32,525 nucleotides of DNA. It comes from a virus. A program made the translations under genes and the position numbers. A model generated the notes under the pieces. That model was not told where the DNA came from. It saw nothing but the letters and a program-made list of their open reading frames with translations, and ran no database searches. The stretch spans positions 1 to 32,525 of the IMG/VR virus record IMGVR_UViG_3300032011_000064; one strand, 5' to 3'. Positions 2,737-12,292 of this stretch are shown piece by piece (position 1 is the first letter of the stretch; each line of letters begins with the position of its first letter).

Positions 2737-2766
2737 ATTATTAAGGTATATTTAAATTCTTGACAA
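2737..2766 (-). promoter_or_regulatory. Possible sigma70-type promoter for the exported-protein genes
   Basis: On the minus strand, TTGTCA (2766 to 2761), an 18-base spacer and AATAAT (2742 to 2737) precede the exported-protein group. The -35 box overlaps the -35 box of the divergent psbA promoter. The region is very AT-rich, so a chance match is quite possible. Confidence 0.35.
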
Positions 2767-2788
2767 GTGCTTAACATTTGTTTATAAT
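2760..2788 (+). promoter_or_regulatory. Consensus sigma70 promoter of psbA
   Basis: TTGACA at 2760-2765 and TATAAT at 2783-2788 are separated by exactly 17 bases: a perfect vegetative sigma70-type promoter. Transcription should start near 2795. This would let the host polymerase transcribe psbA without phage factors. Confidence 0.85.
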
Positions 2789-2794: not shown

Positions 2795-2938
2795 CATCGG
2801 GTGAGCATCTGCTGACCTACTAGTACCCCAAACCGAGACCAAGGGGATTAAGTCTCTCATATCCATCAGTAAAGGGATTGATGGAAATAATCGTATCGCT
2901 TCTACCCTTTGAAGCCCTACTTTTTAAATTGTCCTATT
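2795..2938 (+). ncRNA. Structured psbA leader RNA (PhotoRC-like candidate)
   Basis: The ~144-nt leader between promoter and psbA folds by eye into several elements. Hairpin 2800-2817 has GGU and AGC arms pairing with ACC and GCU. A possible H-type pseudoknot pairs CCCC 2826-2829 with GGGG 2843-2846, interleaved with GAGAC 2835-2839 pairing GUCUC 2852-2856. A hairpin pairs UCCAUCA 2862-2868 with UGAUGGA 2879-2885, and another pairs GCUUC 2898-2902 with GAAGC 2911-2915. The loops of the last two hairpins contain AAAGGG (2871-2876) and CCCUUU (2905-2910), perfect complements that could kiss. There is no ribosome site before the psbA ATG. PhotoRC RNA motifs are known upstream of psbA in cyanobacteria and cyanophages; membership here is inferred from position only. 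Confidence 0.6.
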
Positions 2939-4021
2939 ATGACAACTCTACAAAAAAGGGAACAAGGACTCCTTTCTGGATGGTCCGAGTTCTGCGAGTG
3001 GGTCACAAGTACTAACAACCGCATCTATGTTGGTTGGTTCGGTGTCTTGATGGTTCCTTGCCTATTAGCTGCTACTACATGCTTCATCGTAGCATTCATT
3101 GCAGCACCTCCTGTCGATATCGACGGAATCAGAGAGCCAGTTGCTGGATCTCTTATGTTTGGTAACAACATCATCTCTGGTGCAGTTGTTCCTTCATCAA
3201 ACGCTATTGGTTTACACTTCTATCCTATCTGGGAAGCTGCTAATTTAGATGAGTGGCTTTACAACGGTGGTCCTTACCAGTTGGTAATCTTCCACTTCCT
3301 TATCGGAATCTCAGCATACATGGGAAGACAGTGGGAACTTTCATACCGTTTAGGTATGCGTCCTTGGATCTGTGTTGCTTATTCAGCACCTGTATCTGCT
3401 GCTTTCGCAGTATTCCTTGTGTATCCATTTGGTCAGGGTTCATTCTCTGATGGTATGCCTCTCGGTATATCTGGTACGTTTAACTTCATGTTCGTATTCC
3501 AAGCAGAACATAATATCTTAATGCACCCATTCCATATGGCAGGTGTTGCAGGTATGTTCGGTGGAGCATTATTCTCTGCTATGCATGGTTCTCTTGTTAC
3601 ATCTTCTCTAATCAGAGAGACAACAGGTTTAGATTCACAGAACTATGGATACAAATTCGGACAAGAAGAAGAAACATACAACATTGTTGCAGCACATGGA
3701 TACTTTGGTAGACTTATCTTCCAGTATGCTAGCTTTAATAATAGTCGTAGTCTTCACTTCTTCCTTGCTTCATGGCCTGTGATTTGTGTATGGTTAACCT
3801 CTATGGGTATCTGCACAATGGCGTTTAACCTAAACGGATTCAACTTCAACCAGTCGGTTGTTGATGCATCTGGTAAGGTTGTTCCTACTTGGGGTGATGT
3901 ATTGAACAGAGCAAACCTTGGTATGGAAGTAATGCATGAAAGAAATGCACACAACTTCCCACTTGACTTAGCATCTGCTGAGACATCTGAAGTTGCACTT
4001 GTTGCTCCAAGCATCGGTTGA
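2939..4021 (+). CDS. psbA: Photosystem II reaction-centre protein D1
   Basis: The 360-residue protein matches cyanobacterial D1 throughout. Recognisable parts are the N-terminal [18 protein letters not shown] block, [21 protein letters not shown], the P680 and iron-ligand region ([20 protein letters not shown]), the QB pocket ([15 protein letters not shown]), and the manganese-cluster end ([12 protein letters not shown]). The C-terminal extension after LDLA should be removed by host CtpA. Gln131 corresponds to canonical residue 130, the Gln (D1:1-like) rather than Glu variant. The start at ATG 2939 gives the normal D1 N-terminus. In the host thylakoid it would replace photodamaged D1 during infection. 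It is monocistronic, with its own consensus promoter, structured leader and terminator, and no Shine-Dalgarno sequence. Confidence 0.98.
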
Positions 4022-4048
4022 TAAAACTCAATCAGTGTGTTATATTTA

Positions 4049-4079
4049 AGAGACCCTCACAAAAGGGTCTCTTTTTTTT
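4049..4079 (+). terminator. Rho-independent terminator of psbA
   Basis: A 9-bp perfect stem AGAGACCCT (4049-4057) / AGGGTCTCT (4064-4072) with loop CACAAA is followed by a run of seven T. It lies 28 bases after the psbA stop. Confidence 0.93.
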
Positions 4080-5572: not shown

Positions 5573-5812
5573 ATGGACATGACCATAGTAACATTGACAC
5601 TAACAACAGTTGTGTCATTTCTTGCATTATTAGTAGGGGGTATGATAGGATGGATGGCAAGACAACATTCATATGAAACAACACCTCAAGTAGTGTACAC
5701 TCATCCAGAAATGTTTGATGAAAATGGACAGTTAGTTCCCGATGAAATTTTAGCCCTAAGAATTGAAAACAATTATGACATCAACACCGAAGAAACAACC
5801 GAGGAAGAGTAG
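5573..5812 (+). CDS. Small membrane protein, hypothetical
   Basis: The 79-residue protein has a single N-terminal transmembrane helix (about residues 4-29, TLTLTTVVSFLALLVGGMIG) followed by an acidic soluble tail ending in EETTEEE. A good ribosome site (GGAGGAG) precedes the ATG. The short lumenal/periplasmic N-terminus with a cytoplasmic tail suggests a bitopic inner-membrane protein. Function unknown. The 3' end overlaps the next gene. Confidence 0.75.
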   Translation: MDMTIVTLTLTTVVSFLALLVGGMIGWMARQHSYETTPQVVYTHPEMFDENGQLVPDEILALRIENNYDINTEETTEEE

Positions 5813-8234: not shown

Positions 8235-8240
8235 ATATTT

Positions 8241-8446
8241 GTTGAGTTGACGAACGCAACACGGGAGTGACTGAAAAAACTTGCTGGCATAAGGCTAGTT
8301 AAGGTGATGAGACACAGGTGGTGCTGCTTCTTCGGAAGAACCGACATACCAGTCGGGTCTCAGACAGTAAGGTAAAAATCTACTAATGTAGCAATGCCCC
8401 TTACTTGTTGGTACACATAACTCCAACCTCCCACCCACTCTAAATA
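8241..8446 (+). ncRNA. Candidate structured RNA, class not recognised
   Basis: About 200 bases without a plausible gene but with consecutive helices: GTTG 8246-8249/CAAC 8257-8260; AACT-GC 8278-8284/GC-AGTT 8294-8300; TGAGAC 8308-8313/GTCTCA 8357-8362, enclosing a C(UUCG)G tetraloop hairpin 8327-8338 and CCGAC 8341-8345/GTCGG 8352-8356; AGTAAGG 8366-8372/CCTTACT 8399-8405, enclosing CTAC/GTAG 8380-8391; and GTTGG 8407-8411/CCAAC 8423-8427. The loop ACCA (8348-8351) could also pair with TGGT (8319-8322). It follows a good promoter and precedes a short ORF, so it may be a leader or a free RNA. Cyanophage RNA motifs such as manA and wcaG are candidates to compare; I could not match it to any class. 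Confidence 0.6.
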
Positions 8447-11612: not shown

Positions 11613-12292
11613 TTTTTGAGCATCATAATTTCTTAGGTGATATTGAATTAGAAAAGAAAGAAACTCCTGGTTGTAGATTGTATCAACTTCCTGATGGTAG
11701 TTGGGTTCCTTCTATTACTTCAGTCACTTCCTTTTATAATAGGCAGATCTTTATCAATTGGCGTAAGCGAATTGGTATTGAAGAAGCAAATCGTATCACA
11801 AAGAAAGCAACTACTCGTGGAACTGATTTCCATGAAGCAGTTGAAGTGTATATGAGGAACAATGAAATTGATTGGAATCAATTTAGACCTGCTACTCAGT
11901 TTATGTTTCATCATGCCAAACCTTATTTGGATAAGATAAATAACATACACGCTATAGAAAGAACCCTTTACTCCGAGTACCTTGGTCTTGCGGGTAGAGT
12001 TGATTGTATAGCAGAGTATGAAGGTGAGTTAGCAGTCATAGACTTTAAGACATCGGAGAAGATTAAACCTGAGAAGTGGTTGGAAAACTATTTCGTACAG
12101 GAAACCTTTTATGCTGCTGCTTACTATGAGTTAACTGAAATTCCTGTAAAGAAATTAATTACTATCATGGTTACGCCTGGTGGTGAAGTAAAAGTATTTG
12201 ACAAAAGGAACAAAGGGGACTATATTAAATTATTAGTAAGGTATATAAAAGAGTTTGTATCTAACAGTACTAGGAGACAGGATGGAGAATGA
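11609..12292 (+). CDS. PD-(D/E)XK exonuclease (RecB/MGME1-like)
   Basis: The 227-residue protein has the RecB-family nuclease motifs in order: H75 in RGTDFHEAVE, D132 in LAGRVDCIAEY, D145-x-K147 in AVIDFKTS, and Q164 in FVQETFYAAAYYEL. This is the single-strand DNA exonuclease arrangement seen in MGME1- and Cas4-like proteins. Placed between phoH and the replication genes, it probably acts in DNA processing, recombination or host DNA breakdown. No Cys cluster of Cas4 type is visible, which argues against a Cas4 proper. Confidence 0.88.
   Translation: MIFEHHNFLGDIELEKKETPGCRLYQLPDGSWVPSITSVTSFYNRQIFINWRKRIGIEEANRITKKATTRGTDFHEAVEVYMRNNEIDWNQFRPATQFMFHHAKPYLDKINNIHAIERTLYSEYLGLAGRVDCIAEYEGELAVIDFKTSEKIKPEKWLENYFVQETFYAAAYYELTEIPVKKLITIMVTPGGEVKVFDKRNKGDYIKLLVRYIKEFVSNSTRRQDGE

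Follow-up and report, generated by a model that had tools for sequence, protein, structure and literature searches.

The PhotoRC-II leader of cyanophage psbA: a predicted pseudoknot and two hairpins with conserved complementary loops

Results

A PhotoRC-II leader upstream of psbA

We analyzed a 32,525-nt stretch of viral DNA (IMG/VR record IMGVR_UViG_3300032011_000064, hereafter the window). It carries psbA, followed by a transaldolase gene, an order that is usual in T4-like cyanophages. Of the metabolic genes that marine viruses carry, psbA is one of the best known. The region immediately upstream of psbA matches the Rfam model of the psbA leader family PhotoRC-II (RF01717). The match spans 2813-2898, covers model positions 1 to 96 of 96, and scores 56.7 bits (E = 3e-07) against a curated gathering cut-off of 39. 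In the alignment, helices P1 and P2, the strings AACCGAGACC, GUCUCUCAUA and GGAAAUAAU, and the AGGG loop are all present in the window, and the psbA ATG (2939-2941) lies 41 nt 3' of the last model position. The window leader is a PhotoRC-II RNA. A first-pass annotation, made from the letters alone, had raised a PhotoRC motif as a possibility, and the Rfam models bear this out: PhotoRC-II is above its curated cut-off, while PhotoRC-I (RF01716) has no match at its own gathering threshold anywhere in the window. The features of the locus are as follows.

2760-2788, plus strand: sigma-70-type promoter, TTGACA-17-TATAAT, 12 of 12 consensus matches (consensus match only)
2799-2818, plus strand: P0, 5'-terminal hairpin of 7 bp with one mismatch, just 3' of the inferred transcript start (fold z -2.9; outside RF01717)
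2821-2850, plus strand: P1, predicted pseudoknot stem 1, CCCC 2826-2829 with GGGG 2843-2846, up to 8 bp with a bulge (annotated helix of RF01717; fold)
2835-2856, plus strand: PK, predicted pseudoknot stem 2, GAGAC 2835-2839 with GUCUC 2852-2856 (covariation)
2862-2885, plus strand: P2 hairpin, 9 bp, loop AAAGGG 2871-2876 (RF01717 helix; covariance alignment)
2871-2910, plus strand: proposed kissing helix between 2871-2876 and 2905-2910, with AGGG/CCC(U) as its conserved core (loop conservation)
2898-2915, plus strand: P3 hairpin with a 5-bp stem and loop UACCCUUU, which includes CCCUUU 2905-2910 (covariation; outside RF01717)
2916-2938, plus strand: SD-less initiation region, 23 nt and unstructured; CCUACU follows P3, and GUCCU precedes the ATG (spacing, SD scan)
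2939-4021, plus strand: psbA, photosystem II D1 protein, 360 amino acids (Pfam Photo_RC, 1.6e-86; translation)

The promoter would place the transcript start near 2795. Promoters with at least 9 of 12 consensus matches precede 253 of the 269 leaders with 150 nt of upstream sequence among the matches listed. Directly 3' of psbA is a strong intrinsic terminator with a 10-bp stem and a T run (4048-4073, plus strand), which suggests a monocistronic psbA transcript. Besides PhotoRC-II, the window has one other Rfam match at gathering threshold, a strong manA RNA (RF01745; 162.9 bits; 8240-8437, plus strand), which is likewise an orphan among the cis-regulatory RNAs of marine phages.

Collection and alignment of related leaders

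Leaders were taken from psbA relatives in IMG/VR and from four pattern scans, which together yielded at least 472 records, at least 476 motif candidates, at least 335 of these followed by psbA, and at least 278 unique leaders. Three of the four scans demanded a matched PK helix. Twelve named cyanophage isolates were added for reading. We used covariance models of P2 plus P3 to align 101 leaders, picked for diversity among the 261 that bear P2. Model R1 recovered 79 of 81 source leaders (it missed L100 and L449), and R2 recovered 100 of 100. Because the 101-leader alignment is fitted to the structure, controls in which the structure is slid along the sequences matter for its interpretation.

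The P1/PK pseudoknot

In the window, CCCC/GGGG and GAGAC/GUCUC interleave in the manner of an H-type pseudoknot. Both the arrangement and the coordinates agree with the first-pass annotation, and PK covaries without exception. Among the 278 unique psbA-linked leaders listed, PK occurs as GAGAC/GUCUC (125), AAGAC/GUCUU (91) and GAGAU/AUCUC (62), with no mismatched version, a count that leans on the three scans in which pairing was demanded. Since those scans required a matched helix, the fair test is a scan allowing all 16 combinations. In that scan, PK was matched in 92 of 92 psbA-followed matches listed. The same scan gave 28 matches without psbA: six contig-end cut-offs, one true PhotoRC-II copy (in contig L105), and 21 chance matches, of which six had a matched helix among those listed. 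When the unbiased sets are taken together (psbA relatives, unbiased scan, and window), the three versions number 81, 31 and 8 among the matches listed, again with no mismatch. The letters of P1 vary widely among leaders. This comparative evidence indicates that P1 and GAGAC/GUCUC are predicted correctly as a genuine H-type pseudoknot. The PK motif is absent from 28 of the 77 IMG/VR psbA loci that have enough upstream sequence.

P0, P2 and P3 hairpins

Folding of the whole leader gave a z score of -2.4 relative to shuffled sequences. Hairpins scoring at least 12 at the position of P0 are found in 166 of the 253 promoter-bearing leaders among the matches listed, compared with 13.7% of shuffles. 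The listed P0 stems comprise 105 distinct versions, indicating sequence turnover. The window P0, which scores 9.6 by the uninterrupted-stem criterion, is not one of the 166.

The individual fold z scores of P2 (2862-2885) and P3 (2898-2915) relative to shuffles are -4.1 and -5.9. Across the 101 diverse leaders, 93.3% of P2 cells and 97.1% of P3 cells are paired, and both-side changes occur at five of five P3 pairs; variants of the outermost P3 pair include A-U (51), G-C (31) and U-A (4). Taking the two hairpins as one structure, 94.7% of cells are paired in these leaders versus 57.1% when shuffled and 38 to 48% when slid, and there are 584 double-change cells versus 57 to 99 when slid. P3 strands also pair better with their own partners (0.960) than when re-dealt (0.664) in 60 of the 65 leaders of one set, which represent 15 unique strand pairs. 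P3 lies outside the Rfam model, yet by covariation it is among the best-supported parts of the leader.

P3 lies within 18 nt of P2 in all 261 P2-bearing leaders among the matches listed. Both hairpins are absent from 17 of the 278 unique leaders listed, all short, and a search of these 17 turned up no GGG and nothing stronger than weak, short hairpins; P2 and P3 are therefore not essential. The named isolates divide likewise: P-SSM2, P-RSM4, P-SSM7, P-TIM68, MED4-213, P-HM1, P-HM2, S-SSM4 and S-ShM2 (9 of 12) have both hairpins, and P-RSM6, S-SSM7 and P-SSM4 (3 of 12) have neither.

Complementarity of the P2 and P3 loops

The adjacent hairpins of the window carry exactly complementary loops, AAAGGG (2871-2876) and CCCTTT (2905-2910), located where the first-pass annotation had put them. 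It had also described a perfect 6-bp kissing pair. This pair is present in the window; a full 6-bp run occurs in two of the 261 leaders among the matches listed and is therefore nearly unique to it. For the loop counts, P3 was re-picked within 18 nt of P2 in all 261 leaders. Of the leaders listed, 76 allow at most 3 consecutive Watson-Crick pairs between the two loops, 154 allow 4, 29 allow 5, and 2 allow 6.

What recurs is the core of the pair: among the matches listed, AGGG is found in 259 of 261 P2 loops, CCC in 257 of 261 P3 loops, and AGG in every P2 loop. The four exceptions are still complementary, with GAAGG and AACCUU in L025 and L095, and GGAGG and CCUCC in L367 and L397. Otherwise the two hairpins vary freely, and their conserved letters are the complementary triplets. 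In one subgroup, the P3 loop is the sole CCC between P2 and the AUG (93 of 93 leaders listed); in the other two, further CCC triplets lie nearby in 62 of 65 and 83 of 102 leaders listed.

Shuffling the letters of the loops gives far less complementarity (0 of 200); the complementarity thus appears to be constant, not covarying. We tested for covariation between the loops and did not find it: in 96 of the 99 unique loop pairs, the mean duplex energy was -6.38 kcal/mol for cognate loops versus -6.66 kcal/mol for re-dealt loops, and re-dealt loops were at least as good in 4,998 of 5,000 permutations. The three excluded pairs (six leaders) had P3 picked too far downstream. Because cognate loops pair no better than re-dealt ones, the kissing helix is without covariation support. 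P2 loops of the GGAGGG type mostly face P3 loops of the CCCC type, a combination that can pair only with an A-C mismatch or with the A bulged out. The first-pass annotation had tied the pairing to conservation of the loops as pairs in related leaders, and in these relatives they are both conserved and complementary. We therefore regard a loop-loop interaction as predicted by conservation, not by covariation. Another potential partner for CCCUUU, AAAAAAGGGAA at the start of the psbA coding sequence, was rejected; it is not conserved, and L003 has GAGAGAG instead.

The initiation region

The psbA ATG had been described as having no ribosome site, and this extends to its relatives: no SD-like tetramer occurs 4 to 20 nt upstream of the ATG in any of the 278 unique leaders listed, the window included. 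The distance from the end of P3 to the AUG is 18 to 25 nt in 255 of 261 leaders among the matches listed, and the linker between P2 and P3 is 6 to 18 nt in the 261. An alternative start within P2 of the window, AAAGGG-AUUG-AUG (AUG at 2881-2883, opening a short overlapping frame), was set aside as a by-product of stem letters that is absent from the relatives compared.

Distribution in phages and hosts

The PK motif is present in all 12 named cyanophages. Under stricter filters, with which weak matches may be lost, PhotoRC-II was found in 1 of 400 host-family genomes. This lone match, on a 189-kb contig, has P2 and P3 of the phage type and therefore probably derives from a phage whose DNA entered a cell assembly. 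A host origin of the leader was considered and rejected: one of the 80 genome-contig psbA loci (a set that includes three with about 30 nt or less of upstream sequence) carries the PK motif, and its assembly, labelled Euryarchaeota, looks like phage DNA. The host psbA leaders examined are different: they lack the PK motif and form a simple hairpin near the start codon. On this comparison, the PhotoRC-II architecture appears to be specific to cyanophages.

In marine Prochlorococcus (L484-L534), the psbA leader has a hairpin of varying sequence, GUCUC...GAGAC or GUCCC...GGGAC, about 15 to 16 nt before an SD-less AUG. Several host psbA leaders end with a CGUCCUCAUG box, and a similar UUGUCCUCAUG is seen in the closest relatives of the window among the matches listed.

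Nearly all PhotoRC-II copies found precede psbA, with two non-psbA uses among the matches listed. Contig L105 (4333-5700, plus strand) has a copy without P3 before an open reading frame of 388 amino acids that by eye is virion fibre-like, and it has a complete copy with psbA at 5700. In the reverse complement of L412, from 8328 onward, P1, PK and P2 are interrupted before P3 and followed by small open reading frames, one of them by eye like an HNH homing endonuclease; this is possibly an insertion into the leader. Two psbA leaders with different P2/P3 types (1286-1407 and 11697-11816, both minus strand) lie on one 12-kb contig, L402, which either carries psbA twice or was assembled as a chimera.

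Discussion

A proposed role for the leader

Leader comparison establishes P1/PK, P2, P3, the conserved complementary loops, the spacing, the absence of an SD and the phage specificity as features of a predicted RNA architecture. The reading of it that we prefer, with our confidence about evenly divided, is that the leader may be a rigid, constitutively folded 5' domain of cyanophages that protects the mRNA and presents an SD-less start. This architecture would consist of the 5'-terminal hairpin P0, the H-type pseudoknot P1/PK, and hairpins P2 and P3 joined by AGGG-CCCU loop pairing. P0 and the pseudoknot would leave host RNase E neither a free 5' end nor single-stranded sites at which to enter. 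The kissing pair, if it forms in solution, would fix the distal half of the leader as a compact unit whose end lies some 21 nt ahead of the AUG. We estimate that its roughly 20 stacked base pairs (9 + 6 + 5) would extend about 56 Å, a distance that a 12-nt linker can bridge. The footprint of the 30S subunit is about 20 nt, and the end of the unit would lie near the upstream edge of the 30S initiation footprint, leaving the SD-less start open and offered to the ribosome. The outcome would be a stable, well-translated psbA mRNA during infection, and the leader may in this way control psbA translation or stability, as the first-pass annotation had suggested.

According to one study, RNase E rises in Prochlorococcus infected by phage P-SSP7, with antisense RNAs reportedly shielding the transcripts of the phage (PMC9692554). 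The folded 5' end and pseudoknot could serve T4-like phages as antisense shielding does P-SSP7. Our search of the literature found nothing on how phage psbA mRNA persists and is translated in a dying host.

Alternative explanations

A translational switch is an unlikely alternative. The P2 loop (AGGG, often GGAGGG or UAAGGG) would serve the ribosome as an SD-like site for docking or standby some 60 nt upstream, and the P3 loop would be an anti-SD mimic that masks it as long as no signal has opened the kissing pair. The AGG shared by all 261 P2 loops listed and the absence of an SD near the AUG fit this idea, as do P3 loops that resemble what we take to be the anti-SD sequence, exactly CACCUCC in L367 and L397. 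However, the P2 site is far from the AUG, no conserved start codon follows the P2 loop, many loops match the anti-SD by 3 to 4 nt only, some leaders lack P2 and P3 altogether, and no signal is known. In a further reading, which we think unlikely, the P2-P3 kissing unit would be an SD-independent ribosome docking module, held about 21 nt upstream of the AUG against the mRNA exit side of the 30S subunit and replacing the SD contact for psbA of marine cyanophages.

We consider it quite unlikely that the P2 and P3 loops are conserved for separate contacts, with the ribosome or with a phage or host protein, and not for pairing with each other. Nearly invariant core letters, and the lack of any excess of cognate over re-dealt pairing, speak for separate contacts. 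Against them speak complementarity far above that of shuffled-letter loops (0 of 200), L025 and L095, which have lost a G in P2 together with a C in P3, L367 and L397, which retain GGAGG with CCUCC, and the strict co-occurrence of P2 and P3.

It is very doubtful that the leader is a metabolite or protein receptor, either a riboswitch or an operator like that of T4 gene 32, that adjusts psbA to light or to the stage of infection. Receptors of ligands or proteins often contain pseudoknots and loop-loop contacts, and the letters ACCGAGACC and UCUCUCAUA are strongly conserved, but there is no SD near the AUG and hence no SD-sequestering helix, and nearly all PhotoRC-II copies listed precede psbA. 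In addition, the table of Weinberg et al. (2010) rates PhotoRC-II as probably not a riboswitch. Finally, P3 as an intrinsic terminator within a transcription attenuator is extremely improbable: P3 of the window is followed by CCTACTTTTT, with a terminator-like score, and a T run follows P3 in one subgroup as well (CTTACTTTTTTG), but many relatives have no T run (CCTACTTAAAACG, TCATACTTACCC), the T runs start at least 5 nt past the stem, and the stem is just 4 to 6 bp.

Comparison with known systems

PhotoRC-II was described by Weinberg et al. (2010), whose table lists it as probably cis-regulatory, and it was later reported in 15 cyanophages (PMC9602691, 2022). Rivas et al. (2020; PMC7657543) list it among the families with extra covarying base pairs, so part of the new pairs, perhaps the pseudoknot, may already be on record. 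In the portions of the literature covered by our searches, we found no description of P3 in connection with PhotoRC, PhotoRC-II or cyanophage kissing loops, and neither a function for PhotoRC-II nor experiments on control of psbA by its leader.

The family itself is known, and the window agrees with it in having a full-model match upstream of psbA in phage DNA. Beyond the printed Rfam model are the PK helix, P3, the loop pair, P0 and the fixed spacing: the RF01717 match ends at 2898, and the structure line of the model is printed without the PK helix, P3 or the loop-loop pair. These results suggest a 3' extension of the RF01717 model. PhotoRC-II has remained an orphan ever since its description in 2010, and the corrected architecture yields defined targets for mutation, namely the two loops, the PK helix, the 5' hairpin and the fixed spacer. 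PhotoRC-I (RF01716) is a leader of probable psbA genes in cyanobacteria; the window has no match to it at the gathering threshold.

Two further systems share parts of this architecture. In the gene 32 mRNA of phage T4, which is autoregulated by gp32, an open initiation region comes after a 5' pseudoknot. The psbA leader, also from a T4-like phage, has the same combination of elements; the gene is a different one, and gp32 autoregulation is without a counterpart shown in the psbA leader. Loop-loop contacts are also found in purine riboswitches and in dimerization kissing loops, which, like the predicted P2-P3 unit, link two hairpins through complementary loops. Unlike those systems, the psbA leader hairpins are adjacent in cis, are joined by a linker of 6 to 18 nt, and have no identified ligand core.
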